Source of the DNA: a virus
Length of the DNA stretch: 35,793 bases
Strand: one strand, 5' to 3'
IMG/VR virus record: IMGVR_UViG_3300005581_000053
Coordinates: 1-35,793 of that record
The notes beneath the pieces are model-generated. The model had not been told where the DNA came from, made no database searches, and saw nothing but the letters and a program-made list of their open reading frames with translations. The translations under genes and the position numbers were made by a program. Below are positions 1 to 18,103 of this stretch, piece after piece. Position 1 is the stretch's first letter. Each line of letters starts with the position of its first letter.

Positions 1-976
1 TAGTAGTAATGATAACCACATTGCTAGTAGATGATAAATTATTTCCATTAAAAGTTAGATTACCTAAATTAACTTCGGCAGGCAAACTAGCAAAAATACC
101 ATTACCATAAAATACCTGAGAACTACTGCCACTAATATTGATATTAGAAATATTACCTAGTGTTGGTTTATTTTGAATAAATGCTTTACTGGCTACATTT
201 GTTTCAGTCCAATCACTGTTGATTTGTGCATCCGGTATAGTGGGTCTACCAGTTAAATTAGCCCACGTAATGTTTGCAAGTTTATTATCTACATAAGTAA
301 CGTTTGCTTTATTTGCTAAAATATTTGTAATATCAGTTGCGTAATTTGCGTTATTACCTAAAGCAGTTGCAAGTTCATTTAATGTATTCAATGCTGCCGG
401 TGAACTATCTACTAGATTAGCAATAGCATTTCCAACATAACTTTGAGTAGCAATATTTGATGGGACATCAACTAAATTCGTATAGCTAGGATGTGCCCAT
501 TGCTGACTAATGCCATTGGTCATTAAGAATTTACCACTATTACCTACATCTGATGGGAATGCACTTGCCCAAGTAATAACACCACTACCATTTGTTTTTA
601 ATACATCTCTATTGTTTCCACCTAATATAGTTAGATAATTGATAGAACCTAAATTTGCACGATTTGCATTAAGCTGGTTAACGTCTAATGTTCCAGTAGT
701 CAATGTATCTGAATTCGGCTCATATAACAATCCAGGATCACCTGTATAAGAACCATCTTCATTAAATTGAACTTGTCCATCACGTCCTCTAGGACCTCGG
801 GTGATATAAATGTTATTAACCGTATTGGTTAAAGGTGTTGACGGTGTTGAGGTAGTAAACGTTGAGTTAGCATCTACAAATCCAAGACCTAAATCTTCTT
901 TAGGTACAACAGGAGGACTAAGTCCTGGGTCTTGAGTTATATCTACTTGTTGCGGTTTTATCCAAATTTTTGACAT
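1..976 (-). CDS. Tail fibre-like protein, 3' end outside the window
   Basis: The minus-strand frame is open from an ATG at 976 to the window edge (325 codons, no stop), so the C-terminus is missing. An AAGGAAG Shine-Dalgarno precedes the start. The protein is rich in Asn, Thr, Gly and Ser. A short collagen-like GPRGRDG lies at residues 61-67. Near residues 194-215 is an ALNTLNELATALGNN stretch typical of repeat units in phage tail fibres. It is probably a distal receptor-binding or fibre shaft subunit on the virion. It is the last gene of a late unit that starts at the TATAAATA motif at 2198-2205. The fibre-like composition is seen directly; the exact role is inferred. Confidence 0.75.
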   Translation of the reverse strand, partial: MSKIWIKPQQVDITQDPGLSPPVVPKEDLGLGFVDANSTFTTSTPSTPLTNTVNNIYITRGPRGRDGQVQFNEDGSYTGDPGLLYEPNSDTLTTGTLDVNQLNANRANLGSINYLTILGGNNRDVLKTNGSGVITWASAFPSDVGNSGKFLMTNGISQQWAHPSYTNLVDVPSNIATQSYVGNAIANLVDSSPAALNTLNELATALGNNANYATDITNILANKANVTYVDNKLANITWANLTGRPTIPDAQINSDWTETNVASKAFIQNKPTLGNISNINISGSSSQVFYGNGIFASLPAEVNLGNLTFNGNNLSSTSNVVIITT

Positions 977-995
977 TTAATCTTCCTTCTTATTC

Positions 996-1862
996 TTATG
1001 GTCTAAGTAACGGTGGGATACCCGCACGACTTATTTTACTTCCTAATTTCTTAGCATTTTGTTGCATTGTAAATGGTGTGATATCTGCGGTTAATGCAGT
1101 CATCCATCGTCTATCATTCTTTTCATTTGGGCTTGGGATGTACCCGCTGGACTCAGGTAAACTTAATCGTTGACTGTGTAGTAATTGTAATTTCTCATAT
1201 AATTTCTTAATTATACCTTTATTACGCAATGCTTTAAATGCAATATTTTCTGGGCCAAACTCACCATTATAATCTAATCCAATTCTTCTATATTTCTTAA
1301 CAGTATTAATTAATCTATTAATCTTTTCTGGATCATCAGACTTTAATGCATATCCTGCTAACTTGTATAACTTGCGATATTTCAATTTAGTAGCAACTTG
1401 GTCAAAGTCTGCTTTGCGTTTTCTAGGTAGCTTTAACCATTTATCATTCATTACTGAGTACTCACCAAGACTAATAACAGGTTCATTACTATCCTGTACA
1501 TATAATTCTACTTCATACCCATCAATCAATATGTCGTGGTTATCATTATATACAGTCTTTTTAGCGTCAAACAGTTCACGGTAAACATCATCTTCGTTGA
1601 ACTGAGTCATATCAACCAATAGATGTAAATCAATATCACTTAGATTAGTATAACTATAGGCTGCATTACTTCCAGAGATAGTGATATCTTGAATTGCTAA
1701 ATCAGATAAGCCAAGATGTTCTATAAAATCGCTAGCAATCAATAATAATTGCTCTCTTACGTTTTCTTTCATGTGGTCACCGTTAAATATGGCAGGATTC
1801 AAATGTTCGTGAAAACGAACAGCATCCGACATGTTGAAACTATTTAATTCATTAAAATTCAT
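996..1862 (-). CDS. Pol-beta-superfamily nucleotidyltransferase
   Basis: The 288-aa protein carries the signature of the DNA polymerase beta-type nucleotidyltransferase fold: a GS motif at residues 64-65 (GSNAAYSY), then DID at 76-78 in SDIDLHLLVD. A further acidic residue in the strand EVELYV (117-122) could be the third metal ligand. Such enzymes transfer NMP from an NTP to a protein, RNA or small molecule; the substrate here is unknown. The C-terminal part is basic and helical. The gene sits among tail-fibre and hypothetical genes, 6 bases after the 101-aa gene and 19 bases before the fibre gene, so it is probably transcribed late. All core catalytic residues appear present, so it may be active. 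Confidence 0.7.
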   Translation of the reverse strand: MNFNELNSFNMSDAVRFHEHLNPAIFNGDHMKENVREQLLLIASDFIEHLGLSDLAIQDITISGSNAAYSYTNLSDIDLHLLVDMTQFNEDDVYRELFDAKKTVYNDNHDILIDGYEVELYVQDSNEPVISLGEYSVMNDKWLKLPRKRKADFDQVATKLKYRKLYKLAGYALKSDDPEKINRLINTVKKYRRIGLDYNGEFGPENIAFKALRNKGIIKKLYEKLQLLHSQRLSLPESSGYIPSPNEKNDRRWMTALTADITPFTMQQNAKKLGSKISRAGIPPLLRP

Positions 1863-1868
1863 TGTATT

Positions 1869-2174
1869 TTACCAATTAAATAAACCTTTTTTAGTTATAG
1901 TCATCTTTGAATTTGTAGCAATAGTTGACGGTGTTGCAATACGGCTTGTTGTTGGTATGGTTGTGGAAGCCGGTTTCGTAGGAGGAGTTGACGGTTTTCC
2001 AAATAACGATGCAGAATAACCTATAGAGACCCCAAACCAACTGTTAAAATTAGTGTTAACTTTAGGTGCTGTTGGTTCCATCTTATCATTTAAGTTTGGT
2101 GCTGAAATTGGCATAGATATATTATACGGTGGTGCTTTACTAAACGGCGGGTTAGAAAATAAAAATGAGAACAT
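1869..2174 (-). CDS. Hypothetical Pro/Thr-rich protein
   Basis: A 101-aa protein with no family I recognise. The first 20 residues are hydrophobic and aromatic with prolines. The middle (about residues 60-85) is a Pro-Thr-Ser-rich linker, followed by a lysine-containing tail. It is the first gene behind an exact TATAAATA late motif (2198-2205), with an AAGGA Shine-Dalgarno between the motif and the ATG. A late transcript starting there would carry this gene, the nucleotidyltransferase and the fibre gene, so a small virion or assembly role is plausible but unproven. Confidence 0.6.
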   Translation of the reverse strand: MFSFLFSNPPFSKAPPYNISMPISAPNLNDKMEPTAPKVNTNFNSWFGVSIGYSASLFGKPSTPPTKPASTTIPTTSRIATPSTIATNSKMTITKKGLFNW

Positions 2175-2197
2175 AGTAGATAATCCTTAGTATATAG

Positions 2198-2205
2198 TAT
2201 TTATA
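2198..2205 (-). promoter_or_regulatory. T4-type late promoter motif
   Basis: On the minus strand this reads TATAAATA, identical to the T4 late -10 consensus. It lies 23 bases upstream of the ATG at 2174, just beyond the terminator that ends the preceding unit. Confidence 0.75.
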
Positions 2206-2206
2206 T

Positions 2207-2240
2207 AAAAAAATGGCTATCACGGTGTGTGATAGCCATT
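2207..2240 (-). terminator. Intrinsic terminator after glycosyltransferase
   Basis: A perfect 12-bp stem (AATGGCTATCAC with GTGATAGCCATT, plus-strand arms 2212-2223 and 2229-2240) with a 5-base loop is followed on the minus strand by a run of T. It lies 19 bases past the stop of the gene at 2260 and next to the late promoter of the next unit. It is one of the clearest terminators in the window. Confidence 0.9.
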
Positions 2241-2259
2241 AAAATAGAATTAAATTCTA

Positions 2260-3228
2260 TTATTGTGCTGGGGTTGCGGCTGCTTGTTGAGCGGCTTCAG
2301 CTTGTTTCTTCTGTAATTCTTGAACATACATAGGACCAATTGAATTCATCAAATGATCCTGATTTTCCATACAGAATACATAGCTACCACTATGGCGCAA
2401 TAATACACGTTTATCAACATAGATTTTACCACCTAGATCACGCCAGTTTTCACAGAATGTCCAGTCTTCACTGTAGTAACGATTTTGACGAACTGCTGTA
2501 TCAAAATATGTCTTTAAATGTGCGTCAAATTTTGGATCTAATCCAATGTCGTTCTTGTATTGCTTAACAGCAGGATGTGCTTTAAGTTTTTCAAATACAT
2601 GACGCTTCATTAACAAGAATCCGGTACCTGCTTTACTTACTTCTTGGAATCCATCTGGACCTTCTTCAGCACCATCAAATCCATTAACTACCCACTTGAT
2701 CGGCATAGTTTTCATTGGATACAATCCACCGATAACGTCAACGTCACGGTTGATTAATACTAACAAGTGCCATGGTTCCCAACCAATATCAGCATCAACA
2801 AAGAATAAATGCGTTGAGCCTTCTTGTTCTAAGAACTTAGCTGTTAGTGTATTACGAGCACGACTGATTAATGATTCATTAACCATTGTTTCCAATGTCC
2901 AGTCAATACCAAGTTGACGGGCAGTATTAGCCCACTTAATAAATGACATGAATGTACTTTCAGTCAACATACCACCGTAACATGGCATTGCAATGTGTAC
3001 TTTGGTTGTTTTTAGATAGTCAACGTTAACTTGAATCTGTCCGGGTTGTGGAGCTTGTTCTTTAGCTGCCTGTTCAGCAATTTCTTGAACCTTTTCTACA
3101 GGAACCGTTTTGGGTTCTTTAGTAGATTTAATTGATTTTGTTGCCTTTTTTGCAGTAGGGGCTGCCTCGGCTACCGGTGCTGCTACGGGTGCTGCTTCGG
3201 GTGTTACTTTAGTTTTTTTAGTTGCCAT
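2260..3228 (-). CDS. GT-A-fold glycosyltransferase
   Basis: The 322-aa protein has two parts. Residues 1-65 are low-complexity Ala/Pro/Lys. The rest looks like a family-2-type GT-A glycosyltransferase: a first strand KVHIAMPCYGG (76-86), SLISRARN (119-126), a DAD metal/nucleotide-sugar motif in FFVDADIGW (145-147), and a downstream SEDWTFCENW (253-262) with the acidic pair usual near the acceptor site. It probably adds sugar to a virion component, DNA or host surface; the substrate cannot be told. The gene has an AGAGGACC Shine-Dalgarno that lies in an inverted repeat (3230-3271). It ends at a strong terminator and follows a structural-type hypothetical gene. Confidence 0.75.
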   Translation of the reverse strand: MATKKTKVTPEAAPVAAPVAEAAPTAKKATKSIKSTKEPKTVPVEKVQEIAEQAAKEQAPQPGQIQVNVDYLKTTKVHIAMPCYGGMLTESTFMSFIKWANTARQLGIDWTLETMVNESLISRARNTLTAKFLEQEGSTHLFFVDADIGWEPWHLLVLINRDVDVIGGLYPMKTMPIKWVVNGFDGAEEGPDGFQEVSKAGTGFLLMKRHVFEKLKAHPAVKQYKNDIGLDPKFDAHLKTYFDTAVRQNRYYSEDWTFCENWRDLGGKIYVDKRVLLRHSGSYVFCMENQDHLMNSIGPMYVQELQKKQAEAAQQAAATPAQ

Positions 3229-3229
3229 T

Positions 3230-3271
3230 TGGTCCTCTTAAATGATGTAATTATTTACACACTGAGGACCA
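3230..3271 (-). promoter_or_regulatory. RBS-sequestering hairpin with internal late-like motif
   Basis: Arms TGGTCCTC (3264-3271) and GAGGACCA (3230-3237), read on the minus strand, are perfect 8-bp complements. The right arm is the Shine-Dalgarno of the glycosyltransferase. A nested TGTAA/TTACA stem (3246-3259) overlaps a weak late-like TGTAAATA (3252-3259). Read-through RNA could hide the ribosome site, while a transcript starting inside the loop would not. Confidence 0.5.
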
Positions 3272-3278
3272 CCCCGAA

Positions 3279-4214
3279 TTATTTTTCTTGTAGAAAATCT
3301 TTAGATTCTTTTACTTTTTTCTTGTTAGGGATAACGGTTTTAGTACGTTTTTCCCCCTCCAGCATACTTAATGCTGATATTATACTTTGATTACCCGTTT
3401 GTTCTTTTTTGGCAAGTTCTTTGGCACTAATCATATAATCCATGACACCTACAATCTTATCTTGTGATTGGCTAAGTAACATTTGTACCCATTCAGGTAA
3501 ATTTTCGTCATCACCTATTGCATTTTCTAAATGTGATAAAACACGTAGCATAGTTTGTATTTGATTCTTTACAAAACGACCTTCTGTCTCTCCATGATCG
3601 TCAGGATCAATTGATTTTAAATCATCTTCCATTATGTCAGGATCATGTGGGACAAAATCTTTTAATCTAATTGGCTTACCATCCGCATCTTTTATCTTTT
3701 CTGCAGGTTTAGGACGTGATGGAATTATTGTATCACCTGATTGATTTTGCGGAAGTATTGGTCCTGGTTGTATAGGGTTATCAAAAGCATTTCTCATTGT
3801 ATCATATGCAGGTTCCCGTTGGCGTAAATGCACATCTTTTACTTTTGTATGTATATCGGACCCTGGTTGTATTGGTTCACCTTGATGGTAATAATCCCAA
3901 TCCTCAAATGAGTTTGGATCTTGATTAGGTCTTGCTGATATCTTTCCTGACAGTGGTATAGCTTGGTCTTCATCTAAACCATGTTGACCATCTAATAATT
4001 CACGCAGTTGTTCAGTAGTAGCTAATTCTAAATCACTTGCGTCATATTTACCAGTTCTGACTAATTTACGAATCAATGCCATACGTTCATCAAAATTCTC
4101 TTTCAATGCAACCTTCATTAGTTTCATTAATTTAAGTTTTTGCTGTGGATTGGCTTCCTTTAATAAAGGACGAATCTTTTTAAGTTGTTCTGCGATTAAT
4201 GTTGACTTAAACAT
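3279..4214 (-). CDS. Conserved hypothetical, probable structural or assembly protein
   Basis: A 311-aa hydrophilic protein. The first 70 residues are basic and helical (LKKIRPLLKE, then repeated KLMKLMKVA). The middle is Pro/Asp/Gly-rich and probably disordered. A helical segment at about residues 218-265 contains ENLPEWVQMLLSQSQDKI, which I associate with uncharacterised virion-related proteins of marine T4-like phages. No enzyme motif is visible. Its start is one base beyond the stop of the 118-aa gene downstream, so translation is probably coupled within the late unit behind the motif at 4761-4768. Function unknown. Confidence 0.65.
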   Translation of the reverse strand: MFKSTLIAEQLKKIRPLLKEANPQQKLKLMKLMKVALKENFDERMALIRKLVRTGKYDASDLELATTEQLRELLDGQHGLDEDQAIPLSGKISARPNQDPNSFEDWDYYHQGEPIQPGSDIHTKVKDVHLRQREPAYDTMRNAFDNPIQPGPILPQNQSGDTIIPSRPKPAEKIKDADGKPIRLKDFVPHDPDIMEDDLKSIDPDDHGETEGRFVKNQIQTMLRVLSHLENAIGDDENLPEWVQMLLSQSQDKIVGVMDYMISAKELAKKEQTGNQSIISALSMLEGEKRTKTVIPNKKKVKESKDFLQEK

Positions 4215-4215
4215 T

Positions 4216-4572
4216 TTAATAACAGACCTTTACATAATTAATTGTTCCAGAAGTGTATGCCGATACTTTTGCTCTTACCCATGCAAAATTACCAGTGATA
4301 TTTACAAAACTTACTGCTGGATTAGGTATTGACCCGCCATTATTATTACCTGTAGTACAAATTAAATTATATACAGGGAACCAATCAGAATCAGTTGTTG
4401 GATTCTCAACTAGACTTGCTTGAACAATTACAGTTCCTAAGAATGCTGAAAGTTTCCAAGTAATAGTTTGTAGGGTTTTTCCAGAGGTGTAATAACTTAC
4501 CCCGGGTTGTTTGTCCCCGGTTACTACTGCAATAGTTGTTGGTAATAGGGTAAGTGCGGTTGTTTGGCTCAT
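4216..4572 (-). CDS. Hypothetical beta-rich small structural protein
   Basis: A 118-aa protein rich in Thr, Val, Tyr and Asn with alternating hydrophobic residues, as in a beta-sandwich decoration or fibre-tip protein. It has no signal peptide and no catalytic motif that I can see. Its ATG overlaps the TAA of the 55-aa gene upstream (TAATG), and its stop is adjacent to the start of the 311-aa gene, so the three are translated as one late block. A virion surface protein is the best guess. Confidence 0.6.
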   Translation of the reverse strand: MSQTTALTLLPTTIAVVTGDKQPGVSYYTSGKTLQTITWKLSAFLGTVIVQASLVENPTTDSDWFPVYNLICTTGNNNGGSIPNPAVSFVNITGNFAWVRAKVSAYTSGTINYVKVCY

Positions 4573-4739
4573 TATGCTTTTTCAACTTCCACTAAAACAT
4601 CACCTGCAACTAACTGTTGCACGACTTCTTCAATAGTTTTTGGAAGCTCATCAAACCCAGCAGTCTCTATAGATGCTGGATTATCTCTTACTAATTGACT
4701 TAATTTTACTACAAATACAGTTTCGACAATCTTTGCCAT
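4572..4739 (-). CDS. Small 55-aa hypothetical protein
   Basis: An ATG at 4739 opens a 55-codon frame that ends in TAA at 4572-4574, overlapping the next ATG. It has a GGAG Shine-Dalgarno at proper spacing and a GATAAATA late motif 21 bases upstream, so it is likely a real gene despite its size. The sequence is acidic and amphipathic: MAKIVETVFVVKLSQLV, then FDELPKTIEEVVQQLV. It looks like one strand plus helices. No family is recognised. It is the first gene of the late block 4739 to 2260. Confidence 0.7.
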   Translation of the reverse strand: MAKIVETVFVVKLSQLVRDNPASIETAGFDELPKTIEEVVQQLVAGDVLVEVEKA

Positions 4740-4760
4740 GGTAAACACTCCATTATAGAG

Positions 4761-4768
4761 TATTTATC
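4761..4768 (-). promoter_or_regulatory. Late promoter motif GATAAATA
   Basis: Minus-strand GATAAATA, one base from the T4 late consensus, 21 bases before the ATG at 4739. It separates the dnaJ-clpA unit from the late block 4739-2260. Confidence 0.7.
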
Positions 4769-4771
4769 ATT

Positions 4772-5488
4772 TTATGTTGACTCTGGGCGTTTTTCTAAAG
4801 TGTATTTCCTAGAAATAATCCCGGTAAAGGTAAGTGCAAAAATCGTAATAAAACTCTCATCATTGTATTCAATAAAGTAATGACTGCTACAATAACTGCG
4901 TTTCCAAGAGAGGTATCCACCTAAACTAGGAGTTCCCCTTTCAGTTAACCAGTCATTTAATGAGGGGCTGGGAGAAATTTTAGTGCCTGTACCTTTATAC
5001 CTATCAAACATATTCTTCAATTTCTTAGGAAAATCTTCAGAAACTCGTTTGCTTTTTAAATAGATACGATACTTGAATTTGGGTTCATTGACAAAGTATT
5101 TTATACCTACAGGTACTACATCTTCAATTGCAGTAAAATCAACATTGAATCCTAGTGATTCTAATTCTCTTAAAAACTCTAGGTTATTAGAAAACACACT
5201 AGCAGACTGTCCCTCAATACGAAAAGTGATATCACTTTTCTTTTCTTTCTTTTGAGTATTCTTCCAATCAGCAAAAAGAACTAGTTCATCGACCTTGGCT
5301 CCTGCCATGGTTTTCTTATTGATTTTTATTCGCTTTTGAAAATCTTCTTTTTTCGTAGCATATGAACATAAATATGCACCGATCATATGAACTCTTGCAC
5401 GGTAATTAAATTTACCGAAATACAAGTCTCTATGGTCGATATACCCTACGCCATCACTGCGTGTCTGTTGTAACTTTAATAATGCCAT
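4772..5488 (-). CDS. Hypothetical protein co-operonic with clpA
   Basis: About 238 aa from the ATG at 5488, which has an AGG Shine-Dalgarno five bases upstream. A GTG at 5494 would add two residues. The gene begins inside the last 35 bases of clpA in another reading frame, so its translation is tied to clpA. The protein is basic with many Lys, Phe and Tyr, has no clear membrane segment, and contains SPSPSLNDWLTERGTPS near residues 175-191. I recognise no family. By position, downstream of dnaJ and clpA in one transcription unit, it is a candidate partner or adaptor of the chaperone genes, but only context supports this. Confidence 0.65.
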   Translation of the reverse strand: MALLKLQQTRSDGVGYIDHRDLYFGKFNYRARVHMIGAYLCSYATKKEDFQKRIKINKKTMAGAKVDELVLFADWKNTQKKEKKSDITFRIEGQSASVFSNNLEFLRELESLGFNVDFTAIEDVVPVGIKYFVNEPKFKYRIYLKSKRVSEDFPKKLKNMFDRYKGTGTKISPSPSLNDWLTERGTPSLGGYLSWKRSYCSSHYFIEYNDESFITIFALTFTGIISRKYTLEKRPEST

Positions 5489-7736
5489 CTTCACCTACTT
5501 CTGCTATTAATTTTTGTTGAACATCAAAAACAATTTCTCCGTTCTCTAAGTTAGCATTGATTGTACTATTTTTGATACGCTCAAACAAGAGTTTCTTGCT
5601 CAGAGGTACCCGAATTAGTTCATCAATCTTTCTTGCTAGTGGGCGGGCTCCCATTTTATTATCATAACCCTTTTCTGCTAGATACTCAACTACTGGTTCG
5701 CTCAAGTGTAGTGTAATATTATGTGCCTCTCTGAGAGATTTCTTCAAGTCATCAGCAAATTTAATAACAATTTTTTTGATTGCCAACATATCTAGTTTAC
5801 CAAACTTACATACCAAGTCAATTCGATTTCTGAATTCTGGCTTAAAGAATTCTTTTAATGCTTTGTCATCTTCCCCGCTACGTTCTTGACTACCAAAACC
5901 AATTACATTTCGTTCACTGTCACCACTACCTAAGTTACTAGTCATAATGATAATACAGTTTTTAGCATTGACTTCTTTACCATTGCTACCGGTAACACGA
6001 CCTTCATCAAGCAATTGCAAGAAGATATTAAAGATATCTGGGTGAGCCTTTTCAACTTCGTCAAATAATAGAATTGAATGTGGGTTCTTGCTTAAGTCAT
6101 TAATCAGTCGTCCACCACCTAGTGATCCCTCACCAAAGCCAACATAGCCCGGGGGCGCGCCAATCAAACTTGATACCGAAAACTTTTCACCATACTCTGA
6201 CATATCGTACTTGAGTAGTTTCATGTCAAGGTTCTTAGACAATAATTTAGCTAATTCAGTTTTACCTGTACCGGTTGGGCCTAAGAATAAGAAACTCGCT
6301 TGTGGTTTAGTTTGATTGCCGATACCAGCAAAACTAACATATACACGTTCAAGTACCTTATTAACTGTTTCTTCTTGTCCATATAGTTTTGATTTTACAT
6401 TAGACTCAAGGTTAATAATACGTTCTGAGTTATCATCAGTTAATTTATCAGCAGGAACTCCGGTGTATTTTTCAATCTGATCAAACACTAATTCTTTAGT
6501 AATGATAGCGCCCTTGTTCTCTGCTACTCGTTGTTTAGCACAAGCGGCATCTAACAAATCAATAGACTTGTCTGGATTCTTACGATCCTGAATGTATCGT
6601 GTTGCACCTTCAACTGCGGCTTCAATCGCTTCATCTGTAATCTCCACACTGTGGAAGTCATTCAATCGTACACTTAGACCTTTAAGAATACTAACTGTAG
6701 ATTCACGACTTGGTTCATCAATACTCACACGATAGAACCTTCGCATCAATGCGCGGTCCTTTTCAAATGATTCGTAGTACTCTTCCCAAGTTGTACTTGC
6801 AATAACTTTTAATGTACCCTTAGTAATTGCAGGTTTAATCATGTTAGCAAAATCAACTGCACCATTTGTTGCACCACCGGCGCCACGCATTGTATGTGCT
6901 TCGTCAATGAACAGAATTGCATCTTTCTTAACAGTCAGTGCATCAAGTACTGCTTTAACTTTTTCTTCAAAGTCACCGCGATACTTACTACCTGCTAATA
7001 GACTACCGATCTCTAAACTGTAAAGTTCATGGTCTTTTAAGAATTCAGGGACTTCATCATTGACAATCATTTGTGCTAGACCTTCTGCAATTGCAGTTTT
7101 ACCAACACCAGGATCACCTACCATCAATACATTTGACTTGAATCGTTTAGCTAATACATTGATAATGTCATCAACTTCTTTACTACGACCAATCACAGGC
7201 TCTAGTTTCTGCAACTTAGCCAGTTGTGTTAAATTGATAGTGTATTCTTCTAGGATATTATCTGCTTGTTCGTCTGTTAGTTTAACATCAGCTTGTGTGC
7301 CTTTGTAATGTTTTTGCCAAAAAGGAACAAATTCATTCTTAACAAAACCATGTTTCAATAAGAAATACTGTGCATGACTATTGCCTTCAGCCATAATACT
7401 AAGATACAAGTCAATAGTTGTTACAACTTTACGACCGGTAAATAATACTTGAGTAACGCTACGATTCATTACACGTTCTAAGCTATTAGTTTTGCGTGGC
7501 TGAATTTCTTGTCCTTCAGATACTGATAATTCGATATATTTTAAATTATCTAAATATGTAATTACTTCTTTACTCATAGTATCTGCATCAATACCAAAGC
7601 TGCCTATACATTTCTGAAATGGTGCATAAGAAATTAATGCTAATAGTAGATGTTCTACTGTGCAATATTGATGGTTGCGTTGTTTTGCTAAATCAACTGC
7701 TTTTTCAATAATTGATTCGATTTCCGGTGAGTGCAA
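5454..7736 (-). CDS. clpA: ClpA-like AAA+ unfoldase
   Basis: The 760-aa protein matches ClpA in layout and size (E. coli ClpA is 758 aa). A Clp N-domain spans residues 1-145. D1 has Walker A GDPGVGKT (207-214), pore loop KYRGDFE (251-257) and Walker B LFIDEA. D2 has Walker A GPTGTGKT (486-493), pore loop GYVGFGEG, Walker B LLFDE (556-560) and a sensor-2 GARPL (696-700). There is no ClpB/ClpC middle coiled-coil domain. An IGF tripeptide at 612-614 sits where ClpA and ClpX carry the ClpP-docking loop, so it should feed a ClpP peptidase; none is seen here. The start is TTG with an AAAAGGA Shine-Dalgarno. It follows dnaJ by 24 bases and overlaps the next gene by 35. Confidence 0.93.
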   Translation of the reverse strand: MHSPEIESIIEKAVDLAKQRNHQYCTVEHLLLALISYAPFQKCIGSFGIDADTMSKEVITYLDNLKYIELSVSEGQEIQPRKTNSLERVMNRSVTQVLFTGRKVVTTIDLYLSIMAEGNSHAQYFLLKHGFVKNEFVPFWQKHYKGTQADVKLTDEQADNILEEYTINLTQLAKLQKLEPVIGRSKEVDDIINVLAKRFKSNVLMVGDPGVGKTAIAEGLAQMIVNDEVPEFLKDHELYSLEIGSLLAGSKYRGDFEEKVKAVLDALTVKKDAILFIDEAHTMRGAGGATNGAVDFANMIKPAITKGTLKVIASTTWEEYYESFEKDRALMRRFYRVSIDEPSRESTVSILKGLSVRLNDFHSVEITDEAIEAAVEGATRYIQDRKNPDKSIDLLDAACAKQRVAENKGAIITKELVFDQIEKYTGVPADKLTDDNSERIINLESNVKSKLYGQEETVNKVLERVYVSFAGIGNQTKPQASFLFLGPTGTGKTELAKLLSKNLDMKLLKYDMSEYGEKFSVSSLIGAPPGYVGFGEGSLGGGRLINDLSKNPHSILLFDEVEKAHPDIFNIFLQLLDEGRVTGSNGKEVNAKNCIIIMTSNLGSGDSERNVIGFGSQERSGEDDKALKEFFKPEFRNRIDLVCKFGKLDMLAIKKIVIKFADDLKKSLREAHNITLHLSEPVVEYLAEKGYDNKMGARPLARKIDELIRVPLSKKLLFERIKNSTINANLENGEIVFDVQQKLIAEVGEDGIIKVTTDTQ

Positions 7737-7760
7737 AATGATTTCCTTTTAAAATCTTAT

Positions 7761-8573
7761 TTAATTACTTCGACTCTGCAAAATGCTAGCAGTTATCTTG
7801 TTGTCTATTTTATCAGGAATAAATGGTTTAAGCAATAGCAATTGGTCACCGTTGCCTTGTTCATTCATGTGAGGTAATCCCTGACCCGAAACTCTTAATG
7901 TACTATCAGGTTGTGTTCCTGGTTTGACTTGGACTTGAAATGTTTTCCCACTAATAGTAGTGAAATCAAATGACGTACCCACAATCAAATCTAATACACT
8001 AATTCTATGTTGTGAAACTAAGTCTTGCCCCACACGGTCAAACTTAGGATGTACATGAACTCTGAATTCAACAATAAGAACTCCGCCGGCAATGAGATTA
8101 TCATATCTCATTTGAGCACCGTTCTCTATTCCTTTTGGAATCTCAACTTTAATAGTTTGAGGGCCGCCCTGACCTTGTAGTTGTAATAGTTGTTCAGCCC
8201 CATTGAATACTTGTTCTAACGATACCCAAATGGTTGTCTTAAATGTTTGTTGGAAAGAATGACCAAAAGGATTATTACGTTGTCCCCCAAACATCTGCCC
8301 AAAAATATCATTGAACTGCATATTAAACCCTCCTCCACCTGTAGTAAAGTGAAAGCCACCAGGGCCACCGCCTTGACCAAACGGATTTGGATTATCGTAT
8401 TCTTGTTTCTTTTGTGGATCGCTTAGTGTTTCATAAGCACTTTGAATTTTTTGAAATGTAGCAGTATCACCACCCTTGTCCGGGTGATGAACTCCTGCTA
8501 ATTTGCGATATGCTTTTTTAATGTCATCGGAGGAGGCATTTCTGTCTACCCCTAAAGTTTGATAGTGTTCCAT
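7761..8573 (-). CDS. DnaJ/CbpA-type (class B) co-chaperone
   Basis: The 270-aa protein opens with a complete J domain (about residues 2-62) with the DnaK-activating HPD at 30-32, then a Gly/Phe-rich linker (about 65-105), then two beta-type substrate-binding domains. The four CXXCXGXG zinc motifs of classical DnaJ are absent, so it is a CbpA-like class-B protein. It should stimulate ATP hydrolysis by a host DnaK and deliver substrates. It is the first gene of a unit with clpA. There is no Shine-Dalgarno. A consensus-like sigma70 promoter ends 7 bases before the ATG, suggesting leaderless mRNA. Confidence 0.92.
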   Translation of the reverse strand: MEHYQTLGVDRNASSDDIKKAYRKLAGVHHPDKGGDTATFQKIQSAYETLSDPQKKQEYDNPNPFGQGGGPGGFHFTTGGGGFNMQFNDIFGQMFGGQRNNPFGHSFQQTFKTTIWVSLEQVFNGAEQLLQLQGQGGPQTIKVEIPKGIENGAQMRYDNLIAGGVLIVEFRVHVHPKFDRVGQDLVSQHRISVLDLIVGTSFDFTTISGKTFQVQVKPGTQPDSTLRVSGQGLPHMNEQGNGDQLLLLKPFIPDKIDNKITASILQSRSN

Positions 8574-8580
8574 AGTATTG

Positions 8581-8609
8581 AGTATAGCACAGTTTGTGTG
8601 CTAAGTCAA
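8581..8609 (-). promoter_or_regulatory. Sigma70-type promoter of dnaJ-clpA
   Basis: On the minus strand: -35 TTGACT (8604-8609), a 17-base spacer, and -10 TATACT (8581-8586). Each hexamer differs from consensus by one base. The expected start of transcription is at or next to the dnaJ ATG (8573). Confidence 0.75.
8585..8603. promoter_or_regulatory. Inverted repeat inside the dnaJ promoter, possible operator
   Basis: TAGCACA and TGTGCTA are perfect 7-bp complements around a 5-base centre. They fill the space between the -35 and -10 boxes and overlap two bases of the -10. This is the expected place for a repressor site; the binding protein is unknown. Confidence 0.5.
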
Positions 8610-8617
8610 TATTTATT
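8610..8617 (-). promoter_or_regulatory. Possible late motif AATAAATA upstream of dnaJ
   Basis: Minus-strand AATAAATA lies directly beside the dnaJ -35 box, 36 bases before the ATG, and overlaps the stop of the preceding gene. It could give a second, late start for dnaJ. The evidence is weak because the motif is AT-rich and the spacing is longer than at other late genes. Confidence 0.35.
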
Positions 8618-9215
8618 AAGCTACGCCGGCTACTTTTTCTTTTGTACGACCGTATGCGGCAATACCTAGAACTGCGCCCATTGCAATATGGTAAAGTCCT
8701 GCACCTTGTAATGTCAATGGTTGCCATTGACTTGTTACTGAGCCATGACTCATTGCTTGTAACACTGACCATAGTACCGGGAAGATAACAAAGTCACATG
8801 TACATGTCAACATATAAATCCAACCCATCATTGGGCGCATTTTCTTGTTGATCCAATCTGTAGAACTTTGATCCAATGCTACAGTAGATTCTCCACCTTC
8901 ACTCATTGCACCACCGCCACTTTTTAGTGACTCTGCTTGATTGTGTGTTACTTGTACTGATCCTGCCATATTTCCTCCTGAGTCTTTTCCTGGAATAACT
9001 GCTCCAAAACTTCCGAGTCCACTGGAGCTTGATGCTGGGGGAACTGCACCAAAGCCGGGTGCGGTTGTACCGAATCCGTTTGAAGATGTTCCTCCGAATG
9101 AGCTACCTTGCGGGAATGCTGATATACTAGGATCAGCCGCTAATGCTTCGTGGTGATCGTCTGTCTTTGCTAATGGTATAGTACCGTCTGCTTTTTTTGC
9201 TAATAATGTTGCCAT
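8616..9215 (-). CDS. Putative holin-like membrane protein
   Basis: The ATG at 9215 is preferred over an upstream TTG at 9236, because AGGCAGGA lies at proper spacing before it and it begins one base after the upstream stop. The 199-aa product has a long Gly/Ser/Pro-rich soluble N-terminal part, then two predicted membrane segments at about residues 129-152 (GWIYMLTCTCDFVIFPV) and 170-188, with a basic tail RTKEK. A conserved WQPLTLQGAGLYH lies between them. Similar RPMMGW-type proteins in marine T4-like phages are often called holins. It would release the GH19 endolysin encoded at 17470-18093. The holin role is inferred from topology. Confidence 0.6.
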   Translation of the reverse strand: MATLLAKKADGTIPLAKTDDHHEALAADPSISAFPQGSSFGGTSSNGFGTTAPGFGAVPPASSSSGLGSFGAVIPGKDSGGNMAGSVQVTHNQAESLKSGGGAMSEGGESTVALDQSSTDWINKKMRPMMGWIYMLTCTCDFVIFPVLWSVLQAMSHGSVTSQWQPLTLQGAGLYHIAMGAVLGIAAYGRTKEKVAGVA

Positions 9216-9216
9216 G

Positions 9217-9795
9217 TTATAATCCTGCCTTTGCAATAAAATCTTTTAATAAACTATCTTTTTGTTTATTCATCTTAGCTGGTTCTAATCCAGCTTGTCT
9301 ACGCATTTCATTTAATTCAGGTTCAATATTTTCTTTTTCATCTTCTTCATCTTCTTCAGTATCTTCCGGATTGCTTTCACGGTAAGAATGAGGACTTAAT
9401 TCGAACAAACCTTTTAACTCTGAAATATCTGCACCATATTCTGAACCATCAACTGTAACTGTCCAATCTGCTAATGACATGTTTGTTAGTGTTTCTAAGT
9501 CATCAATCAATTCAACAATACGTTCAACTGCTTTAGTTCTTCTTTCAATCTCAACAAAAACTAAATATTTTCCAGCAGTATACTCACCTTCACTTACTTG
9601 TGCATCTAGTACCCACTCGTAACCACGTTCAAACCAATCAACCAAATCTGTACTAGCTGCTTTACCGACAACTTTAAAAGCTAATGTGATAATCTCATCA
9701 TTGCTTCCTGCTTTTGCTTCATATTCATCAATAGATAATGTTGGGATTACTTGTCCAACTAAATCACGATAATCTAAGTTTTCAACTAGTCTCAT
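9217..9795 (-). CDS. Conserved hypothetical acidic protein
   Basis: A 192-aa protein. Residues 1-130 look like a compact alpha/beta domain. This is followed by a strongly acidic linker at about 138-160 (SNPEDTEEDEEDEKE) and a basic helical tail. The function is not recognised. Its ATG overlaps the TAA of the 207-aa gene upstream (TAATG) and its stop is one base from the holin candidate's ATG, so the three genes form one coupled block. Being downstream of late motifs at 10480 and 10424 suggests late expression and a virion or assembly role. Confidence 0.65.
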   Translation of the reverse strand: MRLVENLDYRDLVGQVIPTLSIDEYEAKAGSNDEIITLAFKVVGKAASTDLVDWFERGYEWVLDAQVSEGEYTAGKYLVFVEIERRTKAVERIVELIDDLETLTNMSLADWTVTVDGSEYGADISELKGLFELSPHSYRESNPEDTEEDEEDEKENIEPELNEMRRQAGLEPAKMNKQKDSLLKDFIAKAGL

Positions 9796-10418
9796 TACAT
9801 TGCTCCCTGAGGGGGTGCCATTGGTTGCGGTGGCATACCGCCCGCCATTGGTGGTTGACCCATAGCCTGATTGGCTGGCGCATTACCTTGTTCTTCAGTA
9901 CCTTCTTTATCTAGGTCATCTTCGTATGCTGAATCTAAATCATCTAGTTCAATTGTCTGTCCTGCTAAGTCAATACTACCTTCACGGACATCATTCATTA
10001 ATTCTCTTGGTATTTCAATACGTACTAACCATACCGGCTTCTCAACCATCTTAGGATAATGTGTGCCTGGTTCAAAATCTTCATGTCCTTCGATTTTTAC
10101 TGGAACTTCAATTGATGTTTTCTTGAAATGTATAGTACATCCTAAGTGTGTTAATCTCTTTCCACCTTTTGGATTGGGCATTAGTTTCTCGGGATACATA
10201 AACACACAGGTTACTGTGTATTTTTTGCTAATAGGACCGTTGACAAGTTCACCTAGTTCCCAGTTCTGGTATGCGTACAAGTCTGCCTCATCTAATACAC
10301 GCTCAAAGTCAAGCAATGTATTAATGGTACCGTCGCTGGTGAAGATACCCTTGATATTATCAATAATATTTGGATAATCTATATCTTTAAAAAAGTCGTC
10401 AGATGGAAGTTTACTCAT
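9795..10418 (-). CDS. Conserved hypothetical phage protein
   Basis: About 207 aa if started at ATG 10418 (MSKLPSDDFF). In-frame upstream ATGs at 10433 and 10454 would add 5 or 12 residues; none of the three has a good Shine-Dalgarno. The main domain has repeated strands with FERVLDEADLYAYQNWELGE and KLMPNPKGGKRL. An acidic segment and a Met/Pro/Gly/Gln-rich tail (PPMAGGMPPQPMAPP) follow, a tail type common in phage structural proteins. I believe similar proteins occur widely in marine T4-like phages without known function. It heads the minus-strand block facing phoH. Confidence 0.65.
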   Translation of the reverse strand: MSKLPSDDFFKDIDYPNIIDNIKGIFTSDGTINTLLDFERVLDEADLYAYQNWELGELVNGPISKKYTVTCVFMYPEKLMPNPKGGKRLTHLGCTIHFKKTSIEVPVKIEGHEDFEPGTHYPKMVEKPVWLVRIEIPRELMNDVREGSIDLAGQTIELDDLDSAYEDDLDKEGTEEQGNAPANQAMGQPPMAGGMPPQPMAPPQGAM

Positions 10419-10423
10419 AGTTG

Positions 10424-10431
10424 TATTTATC
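10424..10431 (-). promoter_or_regulatory. Late motif GATAAATA next to a start codon
   Basis: Minus-strand GATAAATA ends only 5 bases before the ATG at 10418. If used, the RNA would start at or inside the reading frame. It may therefore be inactive, or give leaderless or truncated products. Confidence 0.4.
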
Positions 10432-10479
10432 ATTCTTGCAATGATAATGAGCAATTAGATTTTTTGTAGCGTAGCCTAA

Positions 10480-10487
10480 TATTTATC
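10480..10487 (-). promoter_or_regulatory. Late motif GATAAATA of the 10418-8616 block
   Basis: Minus-strand GATAAATA, 61 bases before the ATG at 10418, in the divergent gap with phoH. It is the more plausible late start for this block. Confidence 0.55.
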
Positions 10488-10509
10488 ACCAGATGATGTG
10501 TTAAAAGTA

Positions 10510-10518
10510 TGCTATATT
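10510..10518 (+). promoter_or_regulatory. Extended -10 promoter of phoH
   Basis: TGCTATATT fits an extended -10 (TGn plus TATATT). No good -35 is present at 16-18 bases. It would give a leader of about 60 bases ending in the AAAAAGGAG ribosome site of phoH. Confidence 0.5.
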
Positions 10519-10585
10519 GCGTGGACCGTTTCACCTTAAATACTCTTGAATGTTATGAGCATTCGGCTCTAAAAAGGAGAATATT

Positions 10586-11374
10586 TTGAGCAAACGCAAA
10601 ACAAGTGCTTTACGCACTCAGGATCAAGATACAAGATACGCACACAGTAAAAAATACGATAACACACAGAAAACATACTACACACACGAATCAAAAACAA
10701 TCAACTTTGACCAAAGTCGTCCTAAGCTGAATAGTAAGCCCATTGTCATGGTGCCCAAATCAGTAAACCAAGAAAAATATATCCTCGCACTACTAGACCA
10801 AGAGACTGATATTGTCGTGGTCGGTGGACCTGCAGGAACGGGAAAAACTTATCTTGCTATGTTAGCTGCAATCAAAGCACTAAAAGCAGGTGAAGTTTCT
10901 CGTATCATTCTTACACGACCCGCCGTTGGGGTAGATGATGAAAAGCATGGCTTCTTGCCAGGTGATCTGAACGCTAAGATGGAACCTTGGACAAGACCTT
11001 TGCTTGATGTATTGAGAGAGTATTATACGGTAAAGGAAATCGCCCACATGCTAGAAGAACAGATAGTGGAAATTGCACCCCTAGCATTCTGTCGAGGTCG
11101 AAACTTTAAACATAGCTATATCGTATTAGATGAGGCTCAAAACGCAACCCCCAGTCAACTCAAGATGATTATGACTAGAATCAGTATCGGCAGTAAGATT
11201 GTAATTACTGGCGACATAGAACAAGCTGATAGAAAAAAAGCCGACAATGGGCTACTAGACTTACAAAATCGATTGGGGAAGGGGGTGATTCCAGGGTTGC
11301 AATTGTGTAACTTTGAACTGAAAGATGTTCAACGCCACAAAATTATAGAGCACGTACTTAGACTGTACGCTTAA
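10586..11374 (+). CDS. phoH: PhoH-like P-loop ATPase
   Basis: The 262-aa protein has the PhoH fold: Walker A GGPAGTGKT (80-88), ILTRPAVG (108-115), LPGDLNAKMEPW (124-135), Walker B YIVLDEAQN (178-186), and a sensor-like ITGD (207-210). PhoH proteins are ATPases widespread in marine phages; the role in infection is not settled and RNA metabolism is often proposed. The first 55 residues are basic and polar and precede the ATPase domain. The start is TTG, chosen because AAAGGAG lies 6 bases before it. It is one of two complete plus-strand genes here, isolated with its own promoter and terminator. Confidence 0.95.
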   Translation: MSKRKTSALRTQDQDTRYAHSKKYDNTQKTYYTHESKTINFDQSRPKLNSKPIVMVPKSVNQEKYILALLDQETDIVVVGGPAGTGKTYLAMLAAIKALKAGEVSRIILTRPAVGVDDEKHGFLPGDLNAKMEPWTRPLLDVLREYYTVKEIAHMLEEQIVEIAPLAFCRGRNFKHSYIVLDEAQNATPSQLKMIMTRISIGSKIVITGDIEQADRKKADNGLLDLQNRLGKGVIPGLQLCNFELKDVQRHKIIEHVLRLYA

Positions 11375-11381
11375 TCGGGTT

Positions 11382-11411
11382 TAGGGGTGCTCATAACATC
11401 CCTATTTTTTT
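11382..11411 (+). terminator. Intrinsic terminator of phoH
   Basis: Arms TAGGGGTG (11382-11389) and CATCCCTA (11397-11404) form an 8-bp stem with one G-U pair and a 7-base loop, followed by seven T. It acts only for the plus strand, since no T run follows on the minus side. Confidence 0.85.
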
Positions 11412-11661
11412 ATATTCCGTTAATTTTTTCTAATTGATCAATTTGGTCTGGATATACTTTTTTGTAATATTCTAGCAGTGTACTCCATGATAGATTCATC
11501 ACATTACCTTGAACTACATTCTTCTGAACATTCTTTTCTTTAAAATCTAAAATAATATTACACATAGTAATATCTCTATCCTTTAGATTTTTAGAAATCT
11601 CTACTTGTTCATCAATCTTGCCATCAGGCTTAGTTACGTATGTTACTAAAAAATATCTCAT
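11410..11661 (-). CDS. Conserved hypothetical 83-aa protein
   Basis: A small alpha/beta protein beginning MRYFLVTYVTKPDGKIDEQV, with ITMCNIILDFKEKNV in the middle and EYYKKVYPDQIDQL near the end. I associate this type with short conserved genes of T4-like marine phages next to the clamp loader; its function is unknown. It is the last gene of the operon and starts 7 bases after gp44. Its stop falls in the T tract of the convergent phoH terminator. Confidence 0.7.
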   Translation of the reverse strand: MRYFLVTYVTKPDGKIDEQVEISKNLKDRDITMCNIILDFKEKNVQKNVVQGNVMNLSWSTLLEYYKKVYPDQIDQLEKINGI

Positions 11662-11668
11662 ATTGTTC

Positions 11669-12592
11669 TCAACTTGTTAATTCTACCATTGTGGCTGCAA
11701 GACTGATCTCAGGGATGCCAACCATTGATAGATTCGCTAGACCATTACGAATGATAATGATACTAGCATCACGCTTCTCGTTTGAATTACCCCACAAATC
11801 TAAATTATTATACAGCCAACGATAGATATCTTCTAATCTACTAGGATATAAACTTAAATGTTGTAGTAATTGCTGACGACCTTCTAAAATTTTACCTGCT
11901 TTAAACAATTGTGTTGCTTCAAAAAGCAATTCATCTTCACCTTTGCCAGCATCTACTGGAGGTAACAATTTACCCGTACTACTATTTACTTGAATCTGAT
12001 TCAAACACTTACGCAAGTCAGGATATGTAGCACTGACATAGCTATCTAGTATATCTAAATCAAAGTCTATGTTCTCAGCAACCAATACTGTTGCGGCACG
12101 TGCAGTAAATTCTGTCTTATCCGTTTTAGTTATTCTAAATTCATGACATCTGCTTTTAAGTGCAGGGATAATTCTGTGTTCATAGTTACAAGTTAGAATA
12201 AATCGTGCAGTCATGTGATATGCTTCCATATCATTACGCAATGCTGCCTGACCTGCTGGAGTTAGATAATCTGCCTCATCTAATAATACGACTTTGAATT
12301 TACCAAATGGCATTGTTTGCACAAAGCCAATGATTTTGTTTCGCACTACGTCAACACTATTCTCACGTGATGCATTGATTTCCAATACATCATATTCTTC
12401 TACACCTAATTCTTGTATAAGAACTTTTGCAAGTGTAGTCTTACCTGTACCGGGTTCGCCACTTAACAATAGATGAGGGATGCTTTCAGTTTCTATCCAA
12501 CCGTTAACTTGCTCTTTCTGTCTGTCATCTACAAAGACATAATCTTCTACAGAATGAGGTCTATATTTTTCTACCCAGAGTTGATTTTTCAT
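11669..12592 (-). CDS. 44: Sliding-clamp loader large subunit (gp44-like)
   Basis: The 307-aa AAA+ protein has Walker A GEPGTGKT (45-52), Walker B VLLDEADYL (102-110), sensor 1 LTCNY (133-137) and the SRC arginine-finger motif (147-149). This is the RFC/gp44 pattern and about the size of T4 gp44 (319 aa). With a small subunit (gp62, not in this window) it loads the gp45 clamp for replication; in T4 the clamp also activates late transcription. The opening WVEKYRPHSVEDYV is the usual clamp-loader N-terminus. Its ATG overlaps the upstream TGA (ATGA). Confidence 0.95.
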   Translation of the reverse strand: MKNQLWVEKYRPHSVEDYVFVDDRQKEQVNGWIETESIPHLLLSGEPGTGKTTLAKVLIQELGVEEYDVLEINASRENSVDVVRNKIIGFVQTMPFGKFKVVLLDEADYLTPAGQAALRNDMEAYHMTARFILTCNYEHRIIPALKSRCHEFRITKTDKTEFTARAATVLVAENIDFDLDILDSYVSATYPDLRKCLNQIQVNSSTGKLLPPVDAGKGEDELLFEATQLFKAGKILEGRQQLLQHLSLYPSRLEDIYRWLYNNLDLWGNSNEKRDASIIIIRNGLANLSMVGIPEISLAATMVELTS

Positions 12593-12918
12593 CGTTTTAA
12601 TGCTTCGTAAGTGATAATGTGGTTAAGTGCTTCACCCAAGTCTTTGTCATGTGGTATGATATGTAATGAGTTTTTTATTCTGTCTGCTTTATCATCATAG
12701 TTACGCAGTTCAACTACATGCCCGCCGTTAGCAGAATATAGATTGAATGATACCCCACGACTTTCTAATTCACCAGAAGAATCATGTCTTGTTGAAATCG
12801 CACGACCGATGTTTTGTCTTTTACTACCAGTCATAACAAGATTGGGTCCTTCGTCTGCTTCTTGATGATCCCAAGCCCAACGTACTTTCTTTAAGAACCA
12901 ATTATCTAACCATTTCAT
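12589..12918 (-). CDS. Conserved hypothetical 109-aa protein
   Basis: A small basic protein starting MKWLDNWFLKKVRWAWD, an aromatic amphipathic helix. Then come a Gly/Ser linker, a strand-rich core (SFNLYSANGGHVVELR) and a helical end. No catalytic motif is visible. It sits between the co-chaperonin (2-base gap) and gp44 (ATGA overlap), so it is probably made with the replication proteins. Function unknown. Confidence 0.65.
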   Translation of the reverse strand: MKWLDNWFLKKVRWAWDHQEADEGPNLVMTGSKRQNIGRAISTRHDSSGELESRGVSFNLYSANGGHVVELRNYDDKADRIKNSLHIIPHDKDLGEALNHIITYEALKR

Positions 12919-12920
12919 TT

Positions 12921-13289
12921 TTATCCTTTTTCACCAATTGTTAAATCATAGACGGGTTCGTCTGATACTAGTAGTATATCATTTTCATCGACTCTACGCA
13001 ACGTCTTTTCTCCCGTTTCATCTTCAACATCAATGCCCCGTGTCCATCTTCCATGACTAATACAAATCCATTTACCCACTTGTATCTCATCATCATTGAA
13101 GTCAGAACCCAATGCATATACTTGCGCCCAGCGTGGTCTGATACCATGATCCTTACGATTATCAGATAACAACACGATTCCACCTGTCGTGATTCGCTCA
13201 TCAAATTCCATATCACTTACAATGATATGTTTTCCAACGGGTTTAAAACTCTCTTTACTAAACTTATGTGGTTCAAACGCTAATTTCAT
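12921..13289 (-). CDS. GroES/gp31-like co-chaperonin
   Basis: The 122-aa protein has the GroES core: KPVGKHIIV (17-25) as first strand; a mobile loop DERITTGGIVL whose IVL (38-40) matches the GroEL-binding IVL of GroES; then WAQVYALG, VGKWICISHG and a final ENDILLVSDE strand. It is longer than GroES (97 aa) and close to T4 gp31 (111 aa). It should cap host GroEL, as gp31 does for folding of the T4 capsid protein. Its ATG overlaps the upstream TGA. Divergence outside the core is high, but the order of motifs is convincing. Confidence 0.88.
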   Translation of the reverse strand: MKLAFEPHKFSKESFKPVGKHIIVSDMEFDERITTGGIVLLSDNRKDHGIRPRWAQVYALGSDFNDDEIQVGKWICISHGRWTRGIDVEDETGEKTLRRVDENDILLVSDEPVYDLTIGEKG

Positions 13290-13654
13290 TTCTTTGCTTT
13301 CGGTTTCTCTGTTTCGGTTTGCTTGATTTCTTCAACTTCTTCGTAATCATCAAATTCTTCAAACATTTTTTGTTCTTCTGGATTCAAGTCAGGTGCTATT
13401 ACTTCTACTACCGGTGGAGGAGTAACTACAGGAGTTACAACTTCTGGTTGTACATCTTCTTGAATTGATGGTTTATTAACAGTATTACTATATTGTCTTT
13501 TAACTCGTTGTGTATTATCCTGTACCACTCTGCCGTGACTGTCGATAATATCACCTCTAGCATTTACGTTCATGTTACCCACGGCACGTACTTTTTCATT
13601 TTTTGAAACCAATGAAGACATATCTACTGTTTTACCTAATGCTGATCTATGCAT
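13286..13654 (-). CDS. Conserved hypothetical, disordered C-terminus
   Basis: A 122-aa protein. The N-terminal 55 residues contain what I take to be a conserved block, MHRSALGKTVDMSSL then KVRAVGNMNVNARGD. The rest is Pro/Val/Glu-rich and ends in a Lys tail. I recall similar short proteins in marine T4-like phages with no assigned function. It precedes the co-chaperonin with an ATGA overlap and follows the Pol III-like gene by 10 bases, with AAGGAG as ribosome site. It may bind nucleic acid or a replication protein, but this is a guess. Confidence 0.65.
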   Translation of the reverse strand: MHRSALGKTVDMSSLVSKNEKVRAVGNMNVNARGDIIDSHGRVVQDNTQRVKRQYSNTVNKPSIQEDVQPEVVTPVVTPPPVVEVIAPDLNPEEQKMFEEFDDYEEVEEIKQTETEKPKAKK

Positions 13655-13664
13655 AATTTTCTCC

Positions 13665-14171
13665 TTATTTTAAGAACTCGTCAATGGACAAGTCATAATG
13701 CAAACTATTTATTCTGTGTATCCCCATCAAATACAGAACATAACTGGATACACTACTACCACGACCTACTCCCCAAACAACTTTATTTGCTCTCATAGTA
13801 TCAACTAGATACTTACAATAACGCAATAATTGAAACAAATCTCGTTGCTGATATAATATTAACTCTTGCCCAACTCGTTGTAATTCTGCGTCAGTTTGAC
13901 ATAAGTCTAGTACATGTTTGGCTATATCTAATTGATTGTATTCTTCTGGAATAAACCAATTACGTTGTAATTGATTGTCAAACTCTTCCTTAGTTATAGA
14001 TTGCTTGACATATTTCTTGAATGTGGGTATATTTTCTATCTCTAAATCTTTATCAAAATAGATATCATCAGAGACTAATGCGTTTTTGATTTTTATGTTG
14101 GGGTCAGATAGAAAGGCACTGCATAAGTCCATTTCATCTAAAATTTGCTGACCGTATATATCAATTTGCAT
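13665..14171 (-). CDS. DNA polymerase III alpha-like fragment (GRGS region only)
   Basis: The C-terminal 50 residues of this 168-aa protein, with VVWGVGRGSSVSSYVL (131-146) and then YDLSIDEFLK, resemble the part of bacterial DnaE around GPGRGSGAGSLVAYAL and LLFERFLNPER. The protein stops just where DnaE continues into the catalytic PDFDVDF. It has the GS motif but no catalytic Asp pair, so it should not polymerise DNA. It could be a remnant, a binder of a replication partner, or an inhibitor. The ATG has no Shine-Dalgarno and a promoter-like sequence ends 6 bases before it. It heads the operon with groES-like and gp44. Confidence 0.7.
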   Translation of the reverse strand: MQIDIYGQQILDEMDLCSAFLSDPNIKIKNALVSDDIYFDKDLEIENIPTFKKYVKQSITKEEFDNQLQRNWFIPEEYNQLDIAKHVLDLCQTDAELQRVGQELILYQQRDLFQLLRYCKYLVDTMRANKVVWGVGRGSSVSSYVLYLMGIHRINSLHYDLSIDEFLK

Positions 14172-14177
14172 TGTGCT

Positions 14178-14206
14178 ATGATAACATAGTTTCTACAAAA
14201 ATACAA
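14178..14206 (-). promoter_or_regulatory. Sigma70-like promoter of the 14171-11410 operon
   Basis: Minus-strand -35 TTGTAT (14201-14206, weak), 17-base spacer, -10 TATCAT (14178-14183, five of six consensus bases). Six bases follow before the ATG, so the message would be leaderless. A small inverted repeat CTATG/CATAG (14176-14189) covers the -10. Confidence 0.5.
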
Positions 14207-14221
14207 TAGCTATTTGCCCTT

Positions 14222-14458
14222 TTAGGCTTTATTATTGTCAATTTTGATATTGTTTTGGATGTTTTGCTTCTTGTACAGTTCATCCATTCTCTTGGCATAT
14301 TCTTTGTTATAGCCTTCAAGAACCATATGTATTTGATTTACCATAAACTCTTTACCAATACGATGTGCAAAAGTTAATTTACTAGTTAAATCTTGAATAG
14401 ATGTTTGTAGTTCATCTATTGTTTTATTTGACAAATCTGGCATGAAAGGGTGTTCCAT
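14222..14458 (-). CDS. Conserved hypothetical 78-aa helical protein
   Basis: The ATG at 14458 (MEHPFMPDLSNKTIDELQ) is chosen over one at 14488, because it overlaps the TAA of the upstream fibre gene as TAATG. The product is almost entirely helical with regular hydrophobic spacing (LQTSIQDLTSKLTFAHRIG), suggesting a coiled coil or oligomer, and has an Asn/Lys tail. I believe short proteins of this type occur in other T4-like phages; their function is unknown. It ends the late fibre block. Confidence 0.7.
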   Translation of the reverse strand: MEHPFMPDLSNKTIDELQTSIQDLTSKLTFAHRIGKEFMVNQIHMVLEGYNKEYAKRMDELYKKQNIQNNIKIDNNKA

Positions 14459-15276: not shown

Positions 15277-15295
15277 AATTTTTAATTCCGTCTTC

Positions 15296-15303
15296 TATTT
15301 ATA
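15296..15303 (-). promoter_or_regulatory. Late promoter motif TATAAATA
   Basis: Exact T4 late consensus on the minus strand, 19 bases before the ATG at 15276, in the short gap after the adhesin gene. Confidence 0.75.
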
Positions 15304-15305
15304 GT

Positions 15306-17468: not shown

Positions 17469-17469
17469 A

Positions 17470-18093: not shown

Positions 18094-18103
18094 AATTTTC
18101 CTT

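Follow-up and report, generated by a model that had tools for sequence, protein, structure and literature searches.

A virus-encoded ClpA and its probable place in a phage-encoded ClpAP(S) protease

We propose, with a probability of about 0.7, that the clpA gene of IMG/VR record IMGVR_UViG_3300005581_000053, a virus fragment of 35,793 bases here called the window, encodes the unfoldase component of a ClpAP(S) protease supplied by the phage itself. Because relatives of the window carry ClpP, ClpS, and chaperones, this phage probably possesses a protein-destroying machine of its own and does not depend on that of its host alone. The window record ends 5.4 kb past clpA and contains no ClpP or ClpS gene within its 35,793 bases; we infer the presence of clpP and clpS in the window's own phage from these relatives. 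The earlier note on this DNA had suggested the recruitment of host ClpP, which we no longer put first: in relatives, ClpP and ClpS are both encoded by the phage, beyond the window's reach, and gene content now makes phage-encoded ClpAP(S) the likely pairing.

Identity of the window ClpA

The clpA reading frame occupies the minus strand (Table 1), the plus strand at 5454-7736 being riddled with stop codons, and it begins with a TTG start codon shortly 5' of which stands the ribosome-binding-like AAAAGGAAA. The product counts 760 residues versus 758 for E. coli ClpA, and TIGR02639, the NCBIfam ClpA model, covers residues 4-724 with 778 bits. This score lies under the curated equivalog cut-off of 993 bits, a threshold for naming bacterial orthologues, which restricts any claim of strict equivalog status and leaves membership in the ClpA family intact. 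In a sequence comparison with the PDB, E. coli ClpA scored best (590 bits, residues 4-739), against ~497 for ClpB and 495 for ClpC. Length, TIGR02639, and the top PDB match all agree with the full-length ClpA-like unfoldase described in the earlier note.

Table 1. Features of the clpA locus in the window
Feature	Positions	Strand	Evidence
clpA, 760-aa ClpA-type AAA+ unfoldase	5454..7736	minus	TIGR02639 E=1e-233; PHROG 4871 E=7e-236; top PDB match E. coli ClpA
ClpA N-domain, residues 1-145	7302..7736	minus	Pfam Clp_N at 13-62; alignment with structures of the E. coli ClpA N-domain
AAA+ module D1, residues ~161-430	6447..7256	minus	Pfam AAA and AAA_lid_9; K213, D278/E279, Y252, R332/R333 intact
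AAA+ module D2 and small domain, residues ~431-725	5562..6446	minus	Pfam AAA_2 and ClpB_D2-small; K492, D559/E560, Y531, R638, R698 intact
Flexible ClpP-docking loop (predicted), residues 604-627	5856..5927	minus	pLDDT <50 throughout in the AlphaFold2 model
IGF tripeptide, residues 612-614	5895..5903	minus	aligns with E. coli ClpA I617-G618-L619 (IGL)
dnaJ, product of 270 aa with a J domain and a DnaJ C-terminal domain	7761..8573	minus	Pfam DnaJ E=3e-22; DnaJ_C E=1e-24

All the residues checked by alignment are identical to those of E. coli ClpA, namely, the Walker A lysines K213 and K492, the Walker B pairs D278/E279 and D559/E560, the pore tyrosines Y252 and Y531, the arginine fingers R332/R333 and R638, and the sensor-2 residue R698, which bears out the complete Walker motifs and intact pore loops read earlier. 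The middle domain is absent, the 760-residue protein being colinear with E. coli ClpA and showing no insertion for it, so that the lack of a ClpB/ClpC-type middle domain also holds. The N-domain that had been credited to the protein is present and is its most divergent large domain, with 27% identity to E. coli ClpA compared to 49% in D1 and 43% in D2; in this domain, E28 is retained and E23 is replaced by Q, a substitution that counts against the ClpAPS reading. The window protein thus resembles the ClpA of E. coli ClpAP and ClpAPS in its length, in the arrangement of its domains, in the catalytic and pore residues that were checked, and in the IGL/IGF loop, whereas it differs by its overall identity of ~40% and by added residues beside the D2 pore loop. 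With the ClpB and Hsp104 disaggregases it shares two AAA+ modules, but it lacks their coiled-coil middle domain and has the IGF loop that is absent from ClpB.

The window ClpA is a full-length match to PHROG 4871, a jumbo-phage protein family labeled "ATP-dependent protease" with members in Atu_ph07, Phosso, PA5oct, 121Q, RaK2, and GAP32. A ClpA-family gene was already annotated in Atu_ph07, PA5oct, 121Q, GAP32, and others, and ClpA has been counted among the core genes of "moraphages" (PMC12619734). Phage-encoded ClpA is not new and the window gene, which looks like a common ClpA found in an unusual setting, adds to a known phage family; the earlier designation as a phage ClpA stands as an identity and is no novelty. 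The protein is ~36-41% identical to the ClpA of isolated phages, and no DNA-level match to any phage record was obtained with window positions 1-20000. In a tree comprising few bacteria and three Hsp100 outgroup sequences, the window ClpA belongs to a freshwater clade of its own (support, 100/100), beside other phage ClpAs and apart from the sampled bacterial ClpA. This clade separates the window from the PHROG 4871 isolates, which are like its family in the company of ClpP and ClpS. Phage ClpA and its sister group, bacterial ClpA, split from the outgroup sequences at 100/100, whereas the single group formed by all phage ClpAs reaches just 90/91; the phylogeny that the earlier note had suggested, run with few bacterial ClpAs, is thus firm on grouping with ClpA over other Hsp100 proteins and less so on a phage-only group. 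A 3.5-kb contig (L116) from a Chitinophagaceae MAG encodes a protein 78% identical to the window ClpA; it is probably a mis-binned phage contig and no clue to the host.

ClpP, ClpS, and chaperone genes of related phages

A clpP gene lies 56-68 kb downstream of clpA in 9/9 of the examined relatives whose sequence extends for at least 68 kb on that side, and ClpS is also encoded. Both are carried by the closest relative, the ClpA of which is 93% identical to that of the window. No clpP was found in relatives with 60 kb or less downstream of clpA, with the exception of one oddly arranged contig of 37,661 bases, in which clpP is located ~35 kb away on the opposite side of clpA and which is probably rearranged or mis-assembled. 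That clpA and clpP are separated by such a distance and are not adjacent speaks against the phage ClpAP pairing. The ClpPs of the relatives all retain the Ser97/His122/Asp171 triad. Window-family ClpP resembles bacterial ClpP and, as in E. coli, retains Y62, F82, I90, M92, and L114 in the hydrophobic pocket, the site at which the E. coli enzyme receives the IGF/IGL loop. The ClpS of relatives retains N34, D35, T38, M40, and H66, the residues of the N-degron pocket. A second, divergent ClpP-like gene was observed ~0.65 kb downstream of a canonical clpP (L099, 1044-1619). Some records label ClpP as a head-maturation protease, an assignment that we rejected: a separate T4-type prohead protease (PF03420) occurs in 7/7 isolates tested and in the four largest relatives, and ClpP is therefore probably not the head protease. 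In one viral contig of 524,565 bases, clpA, clpP, and clpS each occur twice although there is one prohead protease; the contig may have been assembled as a chimera or with part of it duplicated.

The clpP gene of the relatives belongs to a row, clpX-(dnaK)-hsp20-clpS-(sprT)-clpP, in which dnaK and sprT are optional and the order of which is kept in 51 of the 52 related loci having sufficient upstream DNA; dnaK is part of the row in 14. One example (L127, 7760-15752) reads clpX, dnaK, hsp20, clpS, SprT-like, and clpP, all on the same strand. Full-length DnaK was found in 5/15 records searched, the phage ClpX bears an IGF motif as well, and neither GrpE nor GroEL was found in the nine relatives searched. 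This row and the J-domain protein encoded upstream of clpA are partners that did not appear in the earlier note. The dnaJ gene, the product of which retains the HPD motif, is separated from clpA by a 24-base gap, and dnaJ is found immediately upstream of clpA in 78/78 loci with DNA extending that far. It also adjoins clpA in PA5oct and Atu_ph07 and stands one gene apart in Phosso, where the intervening gene (L103, 1939-2457) encodes a peptide deformylase that could be relevant to N-terminal degradation signals. In window-like phages, clpA sits within a block of tail and structural genes. The window encodes, at 31317-34916, a 1199-aa protein with a tail-sheath C-terminal domain, adjoined by two tail-tube-like genes (29317-30618 and 30631-31260). 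A PhoH-like gene (10586-11374) is on the plus strand amid a block of minus-strand genes.

Searches of whole genomes yielded ClpP and ClpS matches in 12/12 isolated phages with ClpA, the XaC1 ClpS match being under the curated cut-off, and, among eight hand-picked phages with no ClpA match, ClpS in 0/8 and ClpP in 3/8. The phages are related to one another and do not count as independent cases, so we claim no significance for this co-occurrence; the control phages were, in addition, selected by hand. ClpX, ClpA, ClpP, ClpS, and DnaJ were given together for Agrobacterium phage Atu_ph07 (PMC6102473), and the freshwater family likewise has these five in one phage; the Atu_ph07 set is a list for a single phage, whereas the freshwater family displays a compact, conserved clpX-hsp20-clpS-clpP row, often with full-length DnaK. 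Other phages have been said to carry ClpS "instead" of ClpP (PMC7824862). The generality of a phage ClpAPS/ClpXP and chaperone set in jumbo phages is apparently unreported in the literature searchable here, the coverage of which is incomplete.

Docking loop and competing readings

The IGF tripeptide is invariant in all ~80 window-family relatives aligned, and the adjacent loop positions vary. Its assignment to the ClpP-binding position, made in the earlier note, is upheld by the alignment with the E. coli IGL, and a buried IGF, which would have spoken against docking, is at odds with the AlphaFold2 model, where the loop is predicted to be flexible and not a packed segment. This model was built on 36 sequences and its domain packing is weak overall (pTM, 0.42); the PDB chains that it matches best come from ClpC, ClpA, and ClpB, with ClpAP and ClpAPS complexes among them. 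The RaK2-like phages, in which clpA is solitary among structural genes, have loops that read IGM, LGM, VGM, MGM, MNM, or IGV, with VGF in XaC1, and a ClpP pocket altered at positions 82 and 114. The joint change of loop and pocket would fit co-adaptation, in what is essentially a single lineage. That RaK2-like phages have no ClpP, as its absence from the top BLAST list had suggested, was rejected when a profile search found a divergent ClpP in all of them.

Our working model is that a ClpA hexamer would grip its substrates via the N-domain, either directly or through the phage ClpS acting as adaptor for N-degrons, and, driven by ATP, would pull them through its two AAA+ rings, six IGF loops docking the hexamer onto a ClpP tetradecamer that the phage also encodes. 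The product of the upstream dnaJ would presumably pass misfolded clients on, together with host or phage DnaK. The position of clpA among tail and structural genes makes a role late in infection the likeliest, when the protease would serve in the quality control of phage proteins and would clear away particular proteins of the host or the phage.

An unlikely alternative is that host ClpP is what the phage ClpA docks on, to be steered by it to new substrates. ClpP is nearly universal among bacteria, the IGF loop is intact and of the bacterial type, and the pockets of phage and bacterial ClpP are alike; with both the phage ClpP and the loop bacterial-like, cross-docking with host ClpP could therefore take place. 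However, the relatives and all the examined ClpA-bearing isolates supply their own ClpP, which makes borrowing unnecessary, and in the RaK2-like phages, the loop and the phage ClpP pocket have both changed. We also regard as rather improbable that ClpA acts without ClpP, as an unfoldase or remodeler working with the adjoining DnaJ, in the manner of a disaggregase or a virion-assembly chaperone. The presence of dnaJ directly upstream in every untruncated locus, the position of clpA in a structural block in both window-like and RaK2-like phages, the loss of IGF from the RaK2-like loops, and the published suggestion that phage ClpA may serve as a translocase or in assembly (PMC7824862) would suit such a role, but IGF is held constant in the otherwise variable loop of the window family, the middle domain for DnaK contact is lacking, and ClpP and ClpS strictly accompany ClpA.

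That clpA is an inert or decaying acquisition from a host appears very improbable indeed. ClpA is a bacterial family and the N-domain has diverged, but dN/dS between the window clpA and its closest relative is ~0.08, a value that places the gene under purifying selection, and all checked catalytic residues are retained. Furthermore, the gene is conserved over hundreds of contigs, ClpA relatives being encoded by 345 candidate stretches in IMG/VR, and the 100/100 clade is distinct from the sampled bacterial ClpA. The phage-encoded ClpAP(S) protease is the reading that we favor.

Implications for proteostasis during infection

Beyond the window gene, we tentatively suggest, at somewhat less than even odds, that freshwater jumbo phages of a large, uncultured lineage possess a proteostasis system complete in itself, composed of ClpA, ClpX, ClpS, ClpP, Hsp20, DnaJ, and often DnaK, which would be independent of the host Clp system or compete with it and would include an N-degron branch run by ClpS. 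The matched differences in loop and pocket between phage lineages make docking specificity directly testable. In the common view, phages borrow or block the proteases of their hosts. If motor, protease, adaptor, and chaperones are all supplied by the phage, protein turnover in infection would be under phage control, with consequences, if true, for the takeover of the host, for counter-defence, and for the quality control of virions.
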